64,000 bases of DNA from an uncultured Saprospiraceae bacterium (GTDB lineage: Bacteria; Bacteroidota; Bacteroidia; Chitinophagales; Saprospiraceae), in NCBI GenBank assembly GCA_937981555.1, contig CALJOK010000050.1:1-64000 (forward strand). Reading direction: 5' to 3'. Positions 35,859 to 45,011 of the stretch are shown one piece after another. The translations under genes were made by a program, and so were the position numbers. The notes under the pieces were generated by a model, which was not told where the DNA came from, made no database searches, and saw nothing but the letters and a program-made list of their open reading frames with translations. Position 1 is the stretch's first letter, and every line of letters starts with the position of its first letter.

Positions 35859-38800
35859 TTAACTCAATTCTTTAATACGTTCTTCAAATAGGTAAAGGGG
35901 AGTTTCTGAATAGAGTTTTTGATATCTGGTGAGTGATTTATTTTTGTAATTATCTTGTTGAGTAATCTTATACAACCAAAAATAAATATCACCTAATTCA
36001 AAATCACTAGTATATTCTTTTACTAAATCTTGTAGTATTTCTTGGGCCTTTTCTTCTTCCTTCTTAGCAAACGCTAATTTGGCAGAGAAAATTTTAGCTT
36101 TGAAGATCAAATCTAAATTTCCTAACTTTTCGATCATCAAAATAGCTTCTTTATGGAAAGCCTGAGCTTCATCAATTCTATCAGCTTCAATTAATGCTTC
36201 CCCTTTTTCCACCAAACTTTCTCCGAGTACTAATTTATTATTAATCATCCGAGCTAATTCAATAGCGCGATTATAATAACTGATCGCTTTTTCATAATTT
36301 TTTTTGACCATGAAAATATCAGCAAGCGCATTGACTGCTTTGGCGATTCCTTTTCTATAGTTTAATTCTTCGCAGAGTGCCAGATTTTTTTCTAAATAGC
36401 CTTTCGCTAAATCGAATTCTCCTTCCTCACTTCGTAACTCTCCGAGCAATCCAAGTGCAATAGCAATTCCTTGCTTATCTCCTAATTCTTCGCTGATGGT
36501 TAAGTCTTGCAAGAAATGTTCGGAGGCTTTTACATAATCTCCTTTGCGTTGATATACACTTCCTATGCAACCGATTGCAATGGATACTAATAATTTATTA
36601 CCTAAATCTTCGCTGAGTTTTAGTCCTTTTTGATAACTGTCCAAGGCTTCATCATAATCTCCCTTTTCAAAAAGAACGATCCCCATATTGGTATATAAAT
36701 TAGCCATACCTTGCGAATCATTTATTTTTTTACAAATGGCTAATTCAGATTCTTGCCATTGGATCGCTTCCTCATAATTCCCTTCATTCATATGTGCCAA
36801 CCCAAGATGAGAAACAATAGAAGCATTAGCTTTGTCAGGATTGTGTTCGCGACTAAGGTTTATACTTTTAGTGAAATAAGATTTTGCATGATCATAAATT
36901 CCTTGTCGAAAGAATAGTGTTCCTAAATTTCCATACACTTTATATTTCCCAACACTATCATCTGTAAATTCAAAATGAGTAGCAGCTGCTTCAAGGTGAG
37001 ATTTGGCATCATCATAATTTCCTTTGAGTGTCAATAATTCACCAATCAAATTATGAATTCGTCCACCCAAAACATGATCATCTTCCTCTCTAATTAAATC
37101 CATCGCCTCTTCATAAACTTTCTGACATCGATCCCATTCACCTACTAATCTAAGCACGCTTGCTTTTTTTAACAAGACCGTTACCAGTTCTTTTCGATCG
37201 GTGGAAGGATCCTTTTTATAATTCCCAACTAACTGTTCATAGAGATTAAGTGCACGAGCATTTTGATATTTTAAACGATTAAAATCTGCCGCTTTTAGCA
37301 AATAATAATTAGTCTTTTCTTCAATTTCAGCCTCACCAAAATGGAAAGCTAAATCAGCATATCGTTCTTCAATTTTACCTTTATATAATTTTTCGATGGC
37401 CTCGGCAATTAGTCGATGTAGTCGACGTAACCTTGCTCGAAGCTGCATATCATATACTGCTTCTCGAAGTAAGGAATGCTTAAAAATATATCTTAACTCA
37501 TTGACCGCTCGCCAAATTTGACCACGCTCAGCAGTTTGAATTTGTTCTTTTAAAACAGCACTCGCGTCTCCATTTCGAGCAATAAATTCCTTTTGAGCTT
37601 TCATCACTTCATTCAAAACTGGAATTTCAAATTCTCTTCCAATCACCGCTGCTGCTTTTACTGTTTCTTTCACCAACAGAGATAAACGATCAATTCGTGC
37701 CATCAAAATAGAATTAATCGAACTCGATAATTTGAGACTATTATCTTTGATGTGCCAAACTTGTCTTCGCTTTTGTAGCAAATTACTTTCAGAAAAATAT
37801 TCAATAATTTGTTCGGCATAAAATGGATTTCCATTCGTAGTCCTCAACAAAAGCTCTTTGAATTCTTTACTGATGGGTGCTTGCAATTTTATTTCTGCAA
37901 AATTTTCAATTGCTTCAGGTTGCAAAATATTCAAGTCGATTTCTAAAATCTTATGTTTTCCATCTAGCAAAGTTTCTCTAGAAAAGAGATGTACTTTTTC
38001 TCCATTATCATCATATCGACTAGTCACTAAAACAAAGATCGGATGACGAGTCATCTTCCTCGCAAAGTCTTGTAAAAATTCAATTGAATCTAGATCAAAC
38101 CAATGCGCATCTTCCAACTCTAAAACCACAGGTTGCAAGCAAGATTCTGCTACGATCAGATTACTTAGTGCGGATAACGTATTTTGATACCGACCTTTCG
38201 CATCCAGCTGTTGCCAAAGCGAAGAGGAACTATTGATCCCAACTTGAGCGGCCAAAATAGATTTAGTACGAGAGAGTTCTTTTCTTATTTGGTTAGCATC
38301 TTCATGAGTAATTAATCTTTCATCGTGATACAAATCCAAATACTTTTTTTCAAAAGATTCGATATTCTGGATTTCCGTATTTTCGAAAGATTGCTCGAAG
38401 TAATTTTTTAAAAAATAGATAAAAGGATTGAGTGGTTTTTTTAAAATTTGATCTGCCTGGCAAGTCAACCAACTTACACTTCCAATCTTTCGCAACTGAG
38501 AACGCATCTCAAATGACAATCGACTTTTACCAATTCCAGCTTCGCCAAACAAATAAGCCACCCCTGCAAAATCATTATTAAGAATTGGTTTTGAAAAATT
38601 GAGTAGTTGTTCTAATTCATCTTTCCGTCCAACCATTCTTCCTCCAAAAACTTGCTGGTCATCAATATTTTTTCCCAACAATTCATAGGTAGGAATATCT
38701 TCATCAATTCCTTTATATTGAATATCTCCTTTGTGATTAAATCTAAAATAAGGACTTTTTTGAATCGTCTCATCCACTAGGACTTCGCCATAATTAGCAT

Positions 38801-39887
38801 AAATCATGAGTCTTGCAGCTAAGTTAATTCGATTACCGACAGCAGCATATTGACATCTTTCAACACCTCCAACTGTTCCTGTAAAGGCATTACCAGAAGT
38901 GATTCCTATTCTAAACTTAAGGGGAGTCGTTCGTCGTAAATCTTTCAGCTCTTCTTCCAATGCCATGACGAACTCTATCGCTCGTTCATTATTATTTTCA
39001 AAGGTAACTGGCGCACCAAAAAATGCAACGAGTACACCTCCTTTATCTCCAAAATCAACTTCTTTAAAGTAACCTGAAAAAGAAGAAATTTCATCTAACA
39101 CTACACTTACAAAATTATTTAATGCCTCATGTGTATCCACTCCAGTAAAAGAAATGAAAACTGAAATTACATCTCGAAATTCACCGTTGTCATCGTATTG
39201 AATAACTTCTTTTGGAAAAAAATTAGAAAGGATGTTAGACTCTAAATCGGGAAGTGGATTGAAGCAATTTTCAATGTCAGGAAATTCGACCATTTCTGAG
39301 AATCGAAAATATTCGTCTTTTTTTATCTCAACAGCAGGTAAGAATTTTTCAAATTTTGTTTTAAAATTTTCATTTAAAATAATCTCCTGTACCTCTGCAT
39401 TATACTGAGATTGTGCCGCTGCATTAATCGCTTCACCTCTGAAGTAAAATGACTTTTGTTTATTTCCAACGATACCCCATTCTACATCACCTTCCCCTAA
39501 TCCGATTTTTATTCCAAAGTAAAAATCTCCAAATCGAGTTTTTCTTATTCCATTTTTTTGGAAAAAATCACGCAATAGCCCTGCCGTTTTAATTAAAACC
39601 TCAGGGGAATCTTGATCAGATGATTTGGGAAAAATAGCTGTAAAAGAATCACCAGCAAAATAAGGAATAAATCCACCTTCGCAATAAACTAAATTGACTA
39701 GTGGCTCGAAAATACCATTGAGGTGAGAAGAGAGTTGTTCAGCACCTTCTTTCCCTTGCTTCATTAACGTTTCGGTCAAAGAAGTAAAACCAGACAAATC
39801 AATAAACAAGGTAAATGCATCGAAATTACCATGTTCATTACCTGCCTTAAATTTTTGCTGAATAAAATGTGGAATAAGGTTTCTCAA
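35859..39887 (-). CDS. Tandem class III cyclase-domain, AAA ATPase and TPR protein (soluble adenylyl cyclase-like)
   Basis: 1342 residues, no membrane segment. Cyclase domain C1 (about 20-170) keeps both metal-binding aspartates: Asp30 in FIDLSGFTSLTE and Asp80 in FAGDSFTAIF. C2 (about 235-375) has Ser246 at the first metal position but keeps Asn355 and Arg359 of YAAVGNRINLAARLM and Lys282 in GDKGGVLVAFFG. One composite active site, with metals from C1 and transition-state residues from C2, is the arrangement of mammalian soluble adenylyl cyclase and cyanobacterial relatives. Next come an AAA/STAND ATPase (Walker A GEAGIGKS at 448-455) and about ten TPRs in the last 450 residues. A cAMP-making or signal-scaffold role is inferred. 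A 41-bp repeat array lies directly upstream. Confidence 0.9.
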   Translation of the reverse strand: MRNLIPHFIQQKFKAGNEHGNFDAFTLFIDLSGFTSLTETLMKQGKEGAEQLSSHLNGIFEPLVNLVYCEGGFIPYFAGDSFTAIFPKSSDQDSPEVLIKTAGLLRDFFQKNGIRKTRFGDFYFGIKIGLGEGDVEWGIVGNKQKSFYFRGEAINAAAQSQYNAEVQEIILNENFKTKFEKFLPAVEIKKDEYFRFSEMVEFPDIENCFNPLPDLESNILSNFFPKEVIQYDDNGEFRDVISVFISFTGVDTHEALNNFVSVVLDEISSFSGYFKEVDFGDKGGVLVAFFGAPVTFENNNERAIEFVMALEEELKDLRRTTPLKFRIGITSGNAFTGTVGGVERCQYAAVGNRINLAARLMIYANYGEVLVDETIQKSPYFRFNHKGDIQYKGIDEDIPTYELLGKNIDDQQVFGGRMVGRKDELEQLLNFSKPILNNDFAGVAYLFGEAGIGKSRLSFEMRSQLRKIGSVSWLTCQADQILKKPLNPFIYFLKNYFEQSFENTEIQNIESFEKKYLDLYHDERLITHEDANQIRKELSRTKSILAAQVGINSSSSLWQQLDAKGRYQNTLSALSNLIVAESCLQPVVLELEDAHWFDLDSIEFLQDFARKMTRHPIFVLVTSRYDDNGEKVHLFSRETLLDGKHKILEIDLNILQPEAIENFAEIKLQAPISKEFKELLLRTTNGNPFYAEQIIEYFSESNLLQKRRQVWHIKDNSLKLSSSINSILMARIDRLSLLVKETVKAAAVIGREFEIPVLNEVMKAQKEFIARNGDASAVLKEQIQTAERGQIWRAVNELRYIFKHSLLREAVYDMQLRARLRRLHRLIAEAIEKLYKGKIEERYADLAFHFGEAEIEEKTNYYLLKAADFNRLKYQNARALNLYEQLVGNYKKDPSTDRKELVTVLLKKASVLRLVGEWDRCQKVYEEAMDLIREEDDHVLGGRIHNLIGELLTLKGNYDDAKSHLEAAATHFEFTDDSVGKYKVYGNLGTLFFRQGIYDHAKSYFTKSINLSREHNPDKANASIVSHLGLAHMNEGNYEEAIQWQESELAICKKINDSQGMANLYTNMGIVLFEKGDYDEALDSYQKGLKLSEDLGNKLLVSIAIGCIGSVYQRKGDYVKASEHFLQDLTISEELGDKQGIAIALGLLGELRSEEGEFDLAKGYLEKNLALCEELNYRKGIAKAVNALADIFMVKKNYEKAISYYNRAIELARMINNKLVLGESLVEKGEALIEADRIDEAQAFHKEAILMIEKLGNLDLIFKAKIFSAKLAFAKKEEEKAQEILQDLVKEYTSDFELGDIYFWLYKITQQDNYKNKSLTRYQKLYSETPLYLFEERIKELS

Positions 39888-39964
39888 CTAGGTTAAAATT
39901 AGATTTTATTTAAAACACTAAAGTAAGCATTATCTAAAATAATCATGTAATAAATGAAGGGAAT

Positions 39965-40394
39965 TGTTTGGAGAGGGAAACTTCTTTTCCGTTTGATTTC
40001 GACTCATTTCCGAATAGGAAACTTCTTTTCCGCTTGATTTCGACTCATTTCTGAATAGGAAATTCCTTTCCCGTTCGACATAGACTTCATTCTAAATTGG
40101 AAACTTCTTTTCCCATCGTCGTAGACTTCATTCTAAATTGGAAAACTGTTTTCCCAGCGTCGTAGACTTCATTCTAAATTGGAAAACTGTTTTCCCATCG
40201 TCGTAGACTTCATTCTAAATTGGAAAACTCTTTTCCCAGCGTCGTAGACTTCATTCTAAATTGGAAAACTGTTTTCCCATCGTCGTAGACTTCATTCTAA
40301 ATTGGAAAACTCTTTTCCCGGCGTCGTAGACTTCATTCTAAATTGGAAAACTCTTTTCCCAGCGTCGTAGACTTCATTCTAAATTGGAAAACTG
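39965..40394. repeat. 41-bp tandem repeat array, about ten copies
   Basis: Ten copies of a 41-bp unit (one of 42 bp) plus a partial eleventh run from 39965; phases at 40089, 40130, 40171, 40212, 40253, 40294, 40335 and 40376. Each unit holds an inverted repeat GGAAAAC-N-STTTTCC (S = G or C) and a TCGTAGACTTCATTCTAA part. The first three copies are more diverged; the others differ mainly at CTG/CTC and A/T/G before CG. 41 is not a multiple of three, and no frame runs through, so it is non-coding. It lies 78 bp upstream of the cyclase gene. Confidence 0.93.
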
Positions 40395-40451
40395 CTACTA
40401 TTGAAATTAGGGTTCTAAGGAATGCGAATAAGATAAATTCAGAATAAAAAA

Positions 40452-40495
40452 AGTAGCTAACCATTTCTATGATCGACTACTTTCTATTTTCTTTT
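40452..40495 (-). terminator. Possible weak terminator
   Basis: AAAGTAG and CTACTTT (7-bp arms, loop about 20 nt) with a T-run on the minus strand after the stem; it would end the transcript of the gene at 40744-41331, about 250 bp downstream of its stop codon. Confidence 0.35.
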
Positions 40496-40572
40496 CTCTA
40501 CCATACTCTTTTCAATTGAGTCTCAGAGAGACGGAATATCAGTAGAAGATCATGGCAATTTCCAAGCTTTAG

Positions 40573-40671
40573 AGTACCAGAGGTAAGGCATTTTTTATAT
40601 GTCGTACCTCTGGCACTTAAAAATGGGGTGACACATTTAGAATGCTACCGGTATTTCGTGCCTCTGCCACT
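40573..40671. repeat. Three short repeats, two as an inverted pair
   Basis: AGTACCAGAGGTA (40573-40585) pairs with TACCTCTGGCACT (40605-40617) as a 13-bp inverted repeat with one mismatch. A third, diverged copy GTGCCTCTGCCACT (40658-40671) repeats the right arm in the same orientation. Confidence 0.55.
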
Positions 40672-40743
40672 TTTTCAAAAAATGTACGGTAGAGATTTAT
40701 TTTTTGGATATTTGTTGGGTGGGTTTGGCCGAAAGTAGTAGCT

Positions 40744-41331
40744 CTATTTTTTTCTTATTTTTTTTATACCTAGTCCTACCATACTTCTATTTGAGATAAT
40801 TTTATTTATTGGTAAATGAGGGCTCATCATGGTATTCATTGAATTTTTTCTTGTACCAAATCTCTGAGGAATATTATTCTTTATTGCTAAAAAATCAAAT
40901 AAGACTGCTAATCCAATTTGATTGTCAGTCTTAGAAATTTCCATTATTAGCATGTTTAATTTTTTTTCTTGTATTAAAATTTTATCCATTAAAAAATATA
41001 TTACCCCAATTAATTTACTTTCTTTTTCTAATGTATATTCATCAATTAAAATTTTTATATTTTCTTCACTTGTCAATAATTCACTTAGTCGATTTCCACA
41101 ATCAGTCTTTAATTTATCTAACTCTATTTGATAATCATCAAAAGAAAATTCATTTATCCATTTGCAGTTTCTGCATCCATTTTTTCTTTTATAAAAATTA
41201 TAAAATGGACTATTAATGGTGTTTAATCTTAAACTGTCTAATTGTTCAAATTTACTTAAAACATTTTCTACCTGAGCACTTGGCTTAAAACAGAATAGGA
41301 TGAATACTAAAATACATATTATTTTATTCAT
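40744..41331 (-). CDS. Secreted DUF6624-like protein, 195 aa
   Basis: 195 residues. Signal peptide 1-19 (ICILVFILFCFKPSAQ). The C-terminal half has IYFLMDKILIQEKK, NIPQRFGTRKN and PINKIISNRSMVGLG, resembling the DUF6624 pattern with a Leu-x-Asp-Arg-like turn, a Pro-Gln-x-Tyr/Phe-Gly-Thr segment and an Arg-x-x-Val-Gly-Leu end; several positions depart from it, so the match is partial. The middle holds CRNCK, two cysteines two residues apart. The function is unknown. It follows the T9SS cargo gene by 13 bp and probably shares its transcript. Confidence 0.6.
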   Translation of the reverse strand: MNKIICILVFILFCFKPSAQVENVLSKFEQLDSLRLNTINSPFYNFYKRKNGCRNCKWINEFSFDDYQIELDKLKTDCGNRLSELLTSEENIKILIDEYTLEKESKLIGVIYFLMDKILIQEKKLNMLIMEISKTDNQIGLAVLFDFLAIKNNIPQRFGTRKNSMNTMMSPHLPINKIISNRSMVGLGIKKIRKK

Positions 41332-41344
41332 ATATATTCTTTAC

Positions 41345-42253
41345 TTATTTCTTGACTATTTTTTTTGTTATTATTTGTCCATTGTATAACCTCATTTTCA
41401 AAAAGTAGATGCCATGATTCAAGTCTAATAAATTTATTTTGTTCAATAAACTATGATGATCCATTTTTTTACTCAATATCTTTTTACCGAAAGTATCAAG
41501 TATTTCTATTTCCATTAATCCTTTTACTTCTATTGAAAGATCTCCTTTATTCACAATTGGATTTGGATATATTCTGGGTGTTGGAATATCTTTTTTTTGC
41601 TCATTAATATTTGATGTGCTAGGAAATTTGAAGTTATCAATAAGCAACCAGTCAAGTGCCATACCTGTATCTGGCATTCTCACAGTTATAAAAGAGGAAT
41701 TATTAGGTGCTACAAAATTAACATCTTGCTTAATCCAAACTCCAATATTTGGATATGCGGGTGGGGATGATTGAATTAAGATTCCAAAATCATTTGATGT
41801 TTCAGACGCACCTATCTCTAGTGAAGAAAAATCCCATCCTTTAAAATAATATGAAAAACTATACTCATTTCCTTCTTCTAAATCTATTGATAATTTTAAG
41901 GCAATTTTCTCTCTGACTGTATCACCATTTATTAAGTTACTTCCAATGCCTATAGTATAATTTCCGTTTTGTGCATCTCCCCATCCCCATGCACAATCGT
42001 TTCTTACAATATCAAGAAAACTACCAAACGTATCAATTACAATAACATCATCCATTAAAGTATGAAAGACATGAGAATAAGGACTAATCAAGCACGTGTC
42101 AGCACTATTATTTTCAAAACTACCATTAAGCACTTGCTGAGAATAACTAACATTAGTTGAGACCAATATAATTATTAAAAGCAGACTTACTTTGAAAAAT
42201 TCGATGACTCTTTGTAAGTGTGTTTTAATATTTTGAAGTACTATTATTTTCAT
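41345..42253 (-). CDS. Secreted T9SS sorting-domain protein with an N-terminal jelly-roll domain
   Basis: 302 residues. The N-terminus contains a signal region with hydrophobic core SLLLIIILVSTNVSYSQ (about 23-39). Residues 40-215 are a beta-sandwich of the NGSFE type: QQVLNGSFENNSADTC, YTIGIGSN, YSFSYYFKGWD, SSFITVRMPDTGMALDWLLIDNF; this is like carbohydrate-binding or DUF642-like modules. Residues 225-302 are a T9SS type A sorting domain (PRIYPNPIVNKGDLSI, DTFGKKILSKK, HGIYFLKM). No catalytic motif. It is first or second of a three-gene minus-strand cluster of exported proteins. Confidence 0.8.
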   Translation of the reverse strand: MKIIVLQNIKTHLQRVIEFFKVSLLLIIILVSTNVSYSQQVLNGSFENNSADTCLISPYSHVFHTLMDDVIVIDTFGSFLDIVRNDCAWGWGDAQNGNYTIGIGSNLINGDTVREKIALKLSIDLEEGNEYSFSYYFKGWDFSSLEIGASETSNDFGILIQSSPPAYPNIGVWIKQDVNFVAPNNSSFITVRMPDTGMALDWLLIDNFKFPSTSNINEQKKDIPTPRIYPNPIVNKGDLSIEVKGLMEIEILDTFGKKILSKKMDHHSLLNKINLLDLNHGIYFLKMRLYNGQIITKKIVKK

Positions 42254-42292
42254 GCTTTAATATATTTTGAAAAAAAGAAGACCTGTTCATTG

Positions 42293-43312
42293 TTAATCCT
42301 CATATTTTTCTCTTTGAAATAATTCTTCTATTTTATCAACTTTACCATCTTTGAAAAAGATAGCGTCACTTGTAACTTTGTGAATATTTAAAATTTCCTT
42401 AACCTGATATTTTCTATAATATTTTAGTTTATTCTTTGTGTCAAAAATTATGATCTCCTTTTGAGTATCTTCTTTATCTTTAATATTTAAATCCCACTTA
42501 TAAAGACGAAGTTCAGTATTTCCTATAGGAACCAGCGCATTTGGATTCTTAGGAAAAGGAGATAAATTAAGTATTGGAATCATTACGATCATTTCCTCAT
42601 TCGGAAGAATAGTTTTAAATTTATAAGGTTTAGGAATCGATTTTTTAAAAATTAACTGTTCATTGTTCAAGTTATATATTTTGACATCGCCATCATAAAT
42701 GATTAAGTATTTTGAGGTAGGATTTTCAAAAAAATCGTAGTAACTATTCGTATTTGTATAATCTACACAAGTGAATTTTTCTTGGTCAAGAGTAATAATT
42801 TCGAATGTACTTTTTCTAATAGAACTTCTATCCTTCATCACAAATATTGTCTTATGGCAAATAATTACATGATCATTTTTAAAAGATAACTTTGGTTCTT
42901 CATTATTTAGATGTAATTCATTTTTGAAGGAGAAAGGAGGTGGTAGAATATTTAAATATAATTCATTTTTGATTGAATATATTCTACTTAAATCTGAGGA
43001 TATAAAAATACGACTAACATCTGATTTGCTTCGAATTTTTGATTTAGCTTCTTCATTTAATTTTTCATAGGGGAAATTTCTTAAATCGTATTTGAATAAA
43101 TTACGCTTTACTTCACCATTTATATCTGGATGATTCTCCAATAAATTATAAGTGAAAACATATTTATTTTCTTTTATATTTTTAATAAAAAGAGTATCAT
43201 TATTTCTACCTATAGAATTTTTTCCACGAGTAAATTCAAAGTTACTTTGAGTCTTTTGTGAACTTGTAATAACTGTCTGAAAAAGTAATATAAAAAGGAT
43301 AATGAATTTCAT
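42293..43312 (-). CDS. Exported protein of unknown function, 339 aa
   Basis: 339 residues with signal peptide 1-18 (FIILFILLFQTVITSSQ). The rest is rich in Lys, Asn and Ile and has loosely repeated beta strands (NDTLFIKNIKENKYVF, DVSRIFISSDLSRIYSI, IYSIKNELYLNIL then FKNELHLN, a short internal repeat, SKYLIIYDGDVKIYNLN). This suggests a propeller-like fold. No lipobox, sorting domain or catalytic motif. I do not recognise the family. It heads a cluster with the two genes at 41345-42253 and 40744-41331, gaps 39 and 13 bp. Confidence 0.7.
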   Translation of the reverse strand: MKFIILFILLFQTVITSSQKTQSNFEFTRGKNSIGRNNDTLFIKNIKENKYVFTYNLLENHPDINGEVKRNLFKYDLRNFPYEKLNEEAKSKIRSKSDVSRIFISSDLSRIYSIKNELYLNILPPPFSFKNELHLNNEEPKLSFKNDHVIICHKTIFVMKDRSSIRKSTFEIITLDQEKFTCVDYTNTNSYYDFFENPTSKYLIIYDGDVKIYNLNNEQLIFKKSIPKPYKFKTILPNEEMIVMIPILNLSPFPKNPNALVPIGNTELRLYKWDLNIKDKEDTQKEIIIFDTKNKLKYYRKYQVKEILNIHKVTSDAIFFKDGKVDKIEELFQREKYED

Positions 43313-43414
43313 ATTGATTAAACTTAATCATATTGATCTTATTCCATCTTAACTAAATACGAGCTTTAATTTTTTAACTTTAATTATTATTTTATTATCC
43401 ATGCCTTTCTAAAA

Positions 43415-43903
43415 TCAACTCTTCCGAATCTTCTCCTCAATCGAAGTCGTCGAATATCCTTCCTTAAATGCTAAACTTTTCACCTCACCTCCATTTTCCA
43501 AAACAATATCAGAACCAACAATTTGCGCTGGTTTCCAATCCCCACCTTTAACAATCACATTGGGTAAAATGATTTTTATCAATTCCAGCGGAGTGTCTTC
43601 TTCAAAAACGACGACCGCATGCACGAACTCCAAAGCAGCTAATAAATGTTGTCGAGTCGCTTCATCATTGATTGGACGATGTTCGCCTTTTAATCTTTTG
43701 ACAGAATCAGCAGAATTTAATCCAATCACTAACCGATCTCCCAAATCACTTGCTTCCGCCAAATAATGAATATGCCCAAAATGTAATATATCAAAACAAC
43801 CATTTGTGAAAACAATTTTTTCACCAGCTGATTTCCATTCCTCAACTGATGATTGAATGGTTTCCCATGATTGTATTTTGGATTGTATTTTTTTAAAAAT
43901 CAT
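43415..43903 (-). CDS. rfaE2: D-glycero-beta-D-manno-heptose 1-phosphate adenylyltransferase
   Basis: 162-residue cytidylyltransferase-fold enzyme equal to the C-terminal domain of HldE. It makes ADP-heptose precursors for lipopolysaccharide core. The nucleotide-binding motif is NGCFDILHFGH (34-44), followed by LNSADSVKRLKGEHRPINDE, a Lys/Arg-rich segment, and VKGGDWKPAQIVG (about 118-130) typical of RfaE2; the kinase half (RfaE1) is not in the window. The gene is 35 bp after the flippase-like gene and may be cotranscribed with it. Confidence 0.93.
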   Translation of the reverse strand: MIFKKIQSKIQSWETIQSSVEEWKSAGEKIVFTNGCFDILHFGHIHYLAEASDLGDRLVIGLNSADSVKRLKGEHRPINDEATRQHLLAALEFVHAVVVFEEDTPLELIKIILPNVIVKGGDWKPAQIVGSDIVLENGGEVKSLAFKEGYSTTSIEEKIRKS

Positions 43904-43910
43904 CTATAAA

Positions 43911-43930
43911 AATCTGTGTTATCTGTGGTA
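43911..43930. repeat. Short intergenic repeat of the AATCTGTGTTATCTGTGG type
   Basis: AATCTGTGTTATCTGTGGTA lies in the gap between rfaE2 and the flippase-like gene. The direct ATCTGTG pair resembles short intergenic repeats common in Bacteroidota genomes. It has no known role. Confidence 0.35.
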
Positions 43931-43937
43931 AAATAAA

Positions 43938-45011
43938 TTACTCTGTGCCTGTATGCTTAGGAACATAATTTCTATTGAGCAAAAATAACAACGCGATAGA
44001 AATTAAGCCAAAGACAATATTACAAAATATCTGAATCGAGAAAAAAGCAATATTAGCAAATGAAAAAGCATCATATTGATTGATTCCATAAATTCCCAAA
44101 GCAGCAATAACTAACCAATGATAAGTACCCATTCCACCAGGTGAAGGAATCACAATTCCAAATGCTCCAAAAACAAAAACCATCAAAGCGACCACCGGCG
44201 AAAGGTCAGCAGTTGGTTCGAAGGAAAAGAAAAATAAATAATTCATTACAAAATACATCGCCCAAATAAACACGGTATGAAATATAAATTGACCAGGAGA
44301 TTCTAATTTTCTAACAGATAAAATTCCTTCCCAAAAACCTAAAACAAGTTCCACTACTTTTTTGTAGATGGTTGTTTGCATTATTTTTTCTCTAAAAATA
44401 AAAAACACAATTAAACCTAATACTCCAAAACCAAGTATTCCTAAAACAATTGGATTAGAGAAAAATCCACCTCCTTTTTTATCTGTATCCATATTTTCAT
44501 TTAGCCAAGTCCACAGGGTATCATACTCCAACAAGAAGGCAATTCCAATAAATGATAACAACATAATTACATCCATAATTCTACCTAAGACAATCGTTCC
44601 CATTGCTTTTTCTACAGGAACTTTTTCTGCATGATTTAGCGCAGCAGCTCGAGCCACTTCTCCCATTCGAGGAATAAATAAATTGACAAAATAGGTAATG
44701 AAAACAGCTATAATACTATTGTATAATTTGGGTTGATAACCTAGCGGTGCTAAAGTCAAATTCCAACGCATCGCTCTACTGATATTACTTAGCGTAAATG
44801 CTACCAATGCAGCAATCACCCAAAGAGGATTTACACTCCAAAAGTCATCTTTTATTTTTTGCAAAAAATCACAATCTTCTTCCGCTATTCCCTTGAGGGC
44901 ACATTCCGCTAAATACGCGTCATTGTAATTATTGTAAATGTAAGACAGAATGGTAAAACCAATTGTAAATGAAATGATGATAAAGATGATATTGCGAATT
45001 GTATTTTTCAA
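43938..45011 (-). CDS. Flippase-like membrane protein (lysylphosphatidylglycerol synthase TM-region family)
   Basis: 357 residues with about eight membrane helices. The segment FTLSNISRAMRWNLTLAPLGY and FVNLFIPRMGEVARAAAL (key residues: PRxGE-R) is the mark of the LPG_synthase_TM/UPF0104 family, with EKAMGTIVLGRIMDV and IPSPGGMGTYHW farther on. It equals the membrane half of MprF, the flippase part, without the catalytic half; homologues in other bacteria are tied to lipid or polymer flipping. An N-terminal helix (about 7-26) precedes a periplasmic loop with two Cys (CALKGIAEEDC), then seven more helices. Confidence 0.85.
   Translation of the reverse strand: MKNTIRNIIFIIISFTIGFTILSYIYNNYNDAYLAECALKGIAEEDCDFLQKIKDDFWSVNPLWVIAALVAFTLSNISRAMRWNLTLAPLGYQPKLYNSIIAVFITYFVNLFIPRMGEVARAAALNHAEKVPVEKAMGTIVLGRIMDVIMLLSFIGIAFLLEYDTLWTWLNENMDTDKKGGGFFSNPIVLGILGFGVLGLIVFFIFREKIMQTTIYKKVVELVLGFWEGILSVRKLESPGQFIFHTVFIWAMYFVMNYLFFFSFEPTADLSPVVALMVFVFGAFGIVIPSPGGMGTYHWLVIAALGIYGINQYDAFSFANIAFFSIQIFCNIVFGLISIALLFLLNRNYVPKHTGTE

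Follow-up and report, generated by a model that had tools for sequence, protein, structure and literature searches.

The 41-bp tandem array described here lies in a stretch of contig DNA of 64,000 nucleotides (the window) from an uncultured Saprospiraceae bacterium. It is probably a lineage-specific non-coding minisatellite bordering a low-GC segment, just outside the conserved promoter-proximal block of a cyclase gene, which grew by duplication of the 41-bp unit at its cyclase-distal end. The array occupies a single locus, has an exact period, runs from diverged to near-identical units, and is absent from the compared upstream DNA of its congeners. Possibly it is one of several such arrays in its own genome, and the main point of interest is the possible function behind periods of 20-21 and 40-41 bp that recur among them.

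Layout and growth of the array

Sequence inspection of 39976-40394 revealed ten full 41-bp units arranged head-to-tail and a 9-base partial unit. The full units span 39976 to 40385 and keep their register without a net gap. TRF reported an older part at 39976-40113 (3.4 copies, 82% match, 2% indels) and a younger part at 40081-40393 (7.6 copies, 95% match, 0% indels). These rows and the ten units in register bear out the ten-copy 41-bp array proposed in the first-pass annotation, with its start corrected from 39965 to 39976. The array had also been called non-coding, and indeed none of the six frames is free of stops within it. The coordinates of all features are collected in Table 1.

Table 1. 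Features of the array, its surroundings and the related loci of the same genome
Feature	Position	Strand	Evidence or remark
Array units 0-2, diverged, closest to cyclase, weaker dyad	39976..40098	.	TRF, unit alignment
Array unit 3, transitional: old dyad and young spacer	40099..40139	.	Unit alignment
Array units 4-9, young and nearly identical, containing GGAAAACT(G/C)TTTTCC	40140..40385	.	TRF, unit alignment
Partial last unit, 9 bases, ending close to the dyad centre	40386..40394	.	Unit alignment
Cyclase gene (Guanylate_cyc, AAA_16, TPR), TTG start, orthologue in 4/4 congeners	35859..39887	-	Pfam, orthologue search
Promoter-proximal block of cyclase, ending just short of the array	39888..39972	-	BLAST homology
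Low-GC segment (0.27), 3 ORFs (195, 302, 339 aa), no match at this place in G003, G004	40395..43414	.	BLAST, GC count
24-nt imperfect inverted repeat, between array and next ORF	40568..40622	.	Repeat search, DNA fold
Non-coding arrays, by period in bp	window (41); C22:1600 (41); C24:3092 (20/60); C22:15163 (21/63); C17 (63)		
~215-aa family loci with arrays	L172:3092-4159 (C24); L039:15163-16268 (C22); L177:1189-2121 (C5); L175:1501-2624 (C59)		
TGGCAT-N5-TTGT(A/G) sites	L172:3443; L039:15487		76-77 bp after array

The dyad GGAAAAC-N-STTTTCC had been assigned to every copy. This is true of units 4-9 (6 of the 10), where it takes the form GGAAAAC-T-STTTTCC, and not of units 0-3: the version in units 0, 1 and 3 is GGAAACTTCTTTTCC, and that in unit 2 is GGAAATTCCTTTCCC. 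The shorter pattern GGAAA-N5-TTTCC has 9 sites in the 64-kb window, all within the array, compared with a mean of 0.26 in shuffled sequences, none of 100 of which reached 9. No Rfam family matched at the gathering score in 38000-43000. Scans of 39800-41000 gave one intrinsic terminator against 0.8 expected, which overlaps unit 0 on the + strand, and one sigma-70-type promoter against 4.1 expected.

The units differ in apparent age along the array. Compared with units 4-9, units 0-1 have 15-17 differences in 41 bases and unit 3 has 3-4; among themselves, units 4-9 differ at 0-3. The first-pass annotation had read the array as an old-to-young gradient with recent growth at the cyclase-distal end, and the unit differences (15-17 versus 0-3) agree with it. 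Its further suggestion of duplication in blocks can be kept in part: unit 5 is identical to unit 7 and unit 6 to unit 9, but very few variant sites underlie the claim. Taken together, the alignment supports the view that the array grew at its cyclase-distal end. The distal end would be near-identical and the near end old because whole 41-bp units were duplicated at the distal end, presumably by slippage or unequal recombination.

Distribution, the cyclase gene and the flanking segment

When a 123-bp array probe was compared with the 7.25-Mb own genome, no second array was found, and other matches had E values of 0.03 or more. The genome-wide spread of the unit, named in advance as refuting a regulatory role, was thus not seen, the unit being confined to this locus. 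Among 60 genomes, one per species, the own genome gave the sole match; the array had no match at E 0.01 in the 59 relatives, for some of which the first-look candidates were scored in part (e.g. 14 of 22). Neither the phage nor the plasmid collection gave a blastn match, and an origin of the array from such elements was rejected. On its own, the array might serve as a marker for strain typing.

The cyclase gene next to the array has orthologues in four congeners, with identities of 90, 90, 78 and 77%, and a TTG start is common to all five genes. BLAST homology upstream of the gene runs to 39969 in G003 and 39972 in G001, the two nearest congeners, and to 39946 in G002 and G004. The block GATTATTTTAGATAATGCTTACTTTAG, between the array and the cyclase start, is identical in the own genome, G003 and G001 and has, by eye, one difference in G004 and two in G002. 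TRF detected no array upstream of the orthologue in any of the four congeners (1500 bases each; 767 in G001, up to the contig end). Since no such array was observed ahead of this gene in the four closest relatives compared, the array is most likely a young local repeat that lies outside the basic control region of the cyclase. If the array affects the cyclase at all, it would do so as an addition at the level of the species.

The first-pass annotation had placed the array 78 bp from the cyclase, a distance corrected here to 88 bases between the first unit and the TTG start (39887), and had found a cAMP-linked regulatory role tempting. In that interpretation the array is a cyclase operator for a CRP-type or other dimeric regulator acting in a cAMP-linked loop, which we consider very unlikely. 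The position upstream of the start and the perfect dyads of units 4, 5 and 7 would suit an operator, but the array is missing in 4/4 congeners that retain the gene and its upstream block, an outcome specified beforehand as refuting a role in cyclase control. The dyad is also unlike the CRP site, TGTGA-N6-TCACA. A genome-wide search for the exact dyad, a check proposed in the first-pass annotation, gave one further site, C49:1953, which by eye falls at the 3' end of an open frame, among its final codons; there is therefore no sign of a regulon. No binding partner of the array was found. On the genomic comparison, a link of the array to the cyclase and cAMP is not supported, and the array is a caution against inferring function from position.

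On its other side the array adjoins DNA with a GC content of 0.27 (40395-43414), compared with 0.33 for the window. Because homology stops just before unit 0 and resumes only at 43419 in G003 and 43437 in G004, the alignments place the array at the border of a segment apparently absent from the same place in these two genomes. Clean insertion ends of the segment were not found, and G003 has different intergenic DNA there. For the ORF closest to the array, no relative turned up in 59 genomes at E 1e-5, and one of the other ORFs has a type IX secretion sorting domain. The inverted repeat at 40568-40622 folds, as DNA, with a z of -5.65 (0/200 shuffles as good); no second genomic copy of it was present among the 40 of 115 candidates that were scored.

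Possible dyad constraint and recurrent periods

Variable columns were counted in the dyad arms and in the rest of the unit. One of 10 columns varies in the arms compared with 18 of 31 elsewhere (Fisher p 0.009, copies not independent), and when unit 2 is left out the counts are 0 and 17 (p 0.0017, copies sharing history). Because the Fisher test treats the copies as independent, it overstates the case for constraint. The dyad is also more symmetric in young units, where 6-7 of 7 positions are paired, than in old units, where 4-5 are. The palindromicity of the young CTG consensus was matched by 11 of 2000 shuffles; that of the young CTC form (246 of 2000) and of the old unit (1311 of 2000) is within chance. 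The array has 19 variable columns and no net indels. In neighbouring non-coding DNA, excluding the array, substitutions and indels numbered 122:20, 17:10, 4:3 and 76:30 in the alignments with the four congeners (219:63 in sum). The 2% indels that TRF gives for the older row allow compensating gaps, which tells against strict spacing, and the indel comparison is weakened by drawing on DNA other than the array.

The low variation of the arms leaves room for a DNA-binding role. The dyad could have been retained through use by a dimeric DNA-binding protein, which we propose less surely than the mode of growth, and in that case the row would act as a small operator array with several sites or as a titration array. 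A narrower form of the minisatellite reading holds instead that the array is a neutral repeat without function, in which the dyad is an accident of the founder unit homogenised by recombination. We lean slightly away from this form while taking it as a serious contender. It accords with a species-specific, single-locus array of which only one end is old, and three weak lines of evidence, namely the lower variation of the arm columns, the greater symmetry of the dyad in young units and the retained unit spacing, go against it.

The dyads had been said to face one side of the helix. This holds at 10.25 bp per turn only; at 10.5 bp per turn each 41-bp step rotates the dyad by -34 degrees, and ten units amount to almost a full turn. 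That A-tracts in helical phase give the array an intrinsically curved DNA is extremely improbable. The dyad does contain A/T tracts, and in other organisms a few arrays exceed most shuffles in phasing (L131: 8, L134: 63, L129: 87 of 2000), but AA/TT phasing at 10.25 bp was reached by 1710 of 2000 shuffles for the young window unit and by 697 and 288 of 2000 for old units 0 and 1. The arrays C22:1600, C5, C24, C59 and C22:15163 were within shuffles too (304 to 1637 of 2000). Phased A-tract curvature of the window unit was rejected, its phasing being no better than that of shuffles.

Other tandem arrays were sought in 2,460,812 bases (34% of the own genome, on contigs that were not randomly chosen), an array being taken as non-coding when no open frame extended 150 bases or more beyond it. 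Five non-coding arrays with unrelated units were found in this part at a score of 100 or more and with at least 2.8 copies. C22:1600 (L039:1600-1729) is a non-coding 41-bp array of 3.2 copies, with a unit that is unrelated to that of the window and contains AACCTGCAGGTT. The C17 array near 293506 (L072:13480-13760) has a 63-bp period made of three 21-bp sub-units and adjoins a 1338-aa ORF. The scan also gave lower-score rows of 19 bp (score 56, 3.1 copies) and 21 bp (score 61) and duplications of about two copies of 37 and 72 bp.

Two of these arrays precede members of one gene family of ~215 aa (C24 and C22:15163; 32% identity, E 5e-30). The own genome has seven full-length members and one fragment, and arrays stand upstream of four of the seven, with periods of 20 bp (C24), 21 bp (C22), 41 bp (C5) and 40 bp (C59). 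The array ends 117 (C5), 145 (C24) or 220 bp (C22) from the gene start. The members tested had only sub-threshold Pfam matches and no NCBIfam match; the C5 member had a weak PHROG tail-fibre match (E 0.0048). Across 4.79 Mb of sampled strands, the motif TGGCAT-N5-TTGT(A/G), which is similar to the sigma-54 promoter consensus, matches twice, at the C24 and C22 family genes. It also occurs upstream of the C34 member and ~530 bases upstream of C67, both of which are without an array. In Flavobacterium psychrophilum, -24/-12 promoters are reported to be in use (PMC9723704, in the part covered here). Outside the own genome, the family was found at 6 loci, some partial, in 5 of 39 other genomes. Comparable arrays are lacking at all 6, apart from a weak 21-bp row (score 69) in G001. 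The window array was rejected as a part of this family (best tblastn E 0.11 in 38001-44000) and as a carrier of its promoter (no TGGCAY-N5-TTGCW within 700 bases, 2 mismatches being allowed).

These loci raise another explanation, that the genome has a class of non-coding arrays, each specific to its locus, with periods close to two and four helical turns (20-21 and 40-41 bp), that serve as multi-site enhancers or operators of the genes that follow, including four ~215-aa paralogues, with the window array as the cyclase's member. We regard this as unlikely, although several observations point to it. Unrelated units share the periods at C22:1600, C24:3092 and C22:15163, the arrays upstream of paralogues C5 and C59 fall in the same range, more than half (4/7) of the full-length paralogues carry such arrays, and two arrays stand 76-77 bp before a promoter-like motif that is rare in the sampled strands. 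Four of seven units were palindromic beyond most of 2000 shuffles (window young CTG 11, C22:1600 56, C24 12, C59 37), but those of C22:15163 (520), C5 (1661) and C17 (2000) were not. Also against a class are the two 21/63-bp arrays, which have open heptad frames and may be coding, and the 19-bp row, which is off the pattern. Periods of 20, 21 and 40-42 bp are common in non-coding rows of fewer than 2.8 copies as well (12 of 44). In addition, the window array has neither such a promoter-like site within 700 bases nor a family member nearby, and the family loci of other genomes are without a comparable array. The recurrence of 20-21 and 40-41 bp periods in unrelated arrays is nevertheless unexplained by an ordinary minisatellite. 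If the shared periods are real, they suggest that a protein, or the way in which repeats duplicate, constrains non-coding repeats of bacteria to nearly whole numbers of helical turns.

Dyad rows elsewhere and known repeat systems

Pairs of the dyad were also counted in other organisms. At a spacing of 31-61 bp they occurred in 4 of 148 genomes including the own one (control pattern 0), and at 17-47 bp in 3 of 395 genomes of the phylum, again including the own one, with the control pattern in 1 genome. In the order of G354, 2 of 400 had pairs at 17-47 bp, both with a spacing of 37, and the control pattern likewise gave 2. Outside the own genome, pairs of the dyad are thus roughly as infrequent as the reversed control, and no preference for 41 bp emerges from these counts. 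A GTDB scan for two GGAAA-N5-TTTCC sites exactly 41 bp apart gave 21 loci. Of these, 17 lie inside a TRF row or no more than 60 bases from one. Nine are labelled Bacteroidales or genera of that order; labels of the whole set include Bacteroidales, Verrucomicrobiales, Acidobacteria and Chloroflexi, and several loci overlap open frames. Since the spacing was imposed by the search pattern, the 41-bp period of these loci is no independent evidence: the loci document that rows of this kind occur and say nothing about a favoured period. With rows of GGAAA-N5-TTTCC 41 bp apart in other phyla, the design may recur widely. In L139, L147, L142 and L149, records labelled Bacteroidales and Acidobacteria and one viral contig, dyad rows alternate at 20/21 bp or two palindromes alternate in each 42-bp unit. 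IMG/VR had 3 loci with a dyad pair, with units that by eye look different from those of the window.

Several known systems resemble the array in part. An iteron array of a replication origin would be expected to have an initiator gene beside it, but the Pfam matches of 7 neighbouring proteins named none (2 of the 7 had no match). CRISPR arrays consist of regularly spaced dyad repeats with variable spacers. The window dyads are regularly spaced as well, but the 26 bases between them are themselves repeated and variable spacers are lacking. Like PARCEL, the array has tandem units, dyad symmetry and a patchy distribution; unlike PARCEL, which codes for a 25-residue repeat (75 nt), it is non-coding and has a 41-nt unit. 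REP elements tagged with GTAG/CGTC are extragenic palindromes of 20-40 bp with high copy numbers (PMC3733652, in the part covered here). The window unit happens to carry CGTC and GTAG, but REP elements have many dispersed copies and the window unit is confined to one locus.

The closest likeness is to the bacterial intergenic minisatellites (VNTR), which are likewise short non-coding tandem arrays with a long repeat found at a single locus. Subirana and Messeguer (2019; PMC6749651) describe, in the parts covered, unique and unrelated long-repeat satellites in C. difficile and a substantial number of bacterial repeat lengths not divisible by 3; a class of 20-21 or 40-41 bp periods was not seen in those parts. 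Among the matches listed in a literature search at title and abstract level, none dealt with phased non-coding arrays of 20-21 or 41 bp in Bacteroidota. Compared with the satellites in the covered parts of PMC6749651, the window array differs in that its young units contain a dyad and that several arrays of its own genome share periods of 20-21 and 40-41 bp. By its head-to-tail copies, its non-coding sequence and its restriction to one locus in one lineage, the window array probably belongs to the bacterial intergenic minisatellites.
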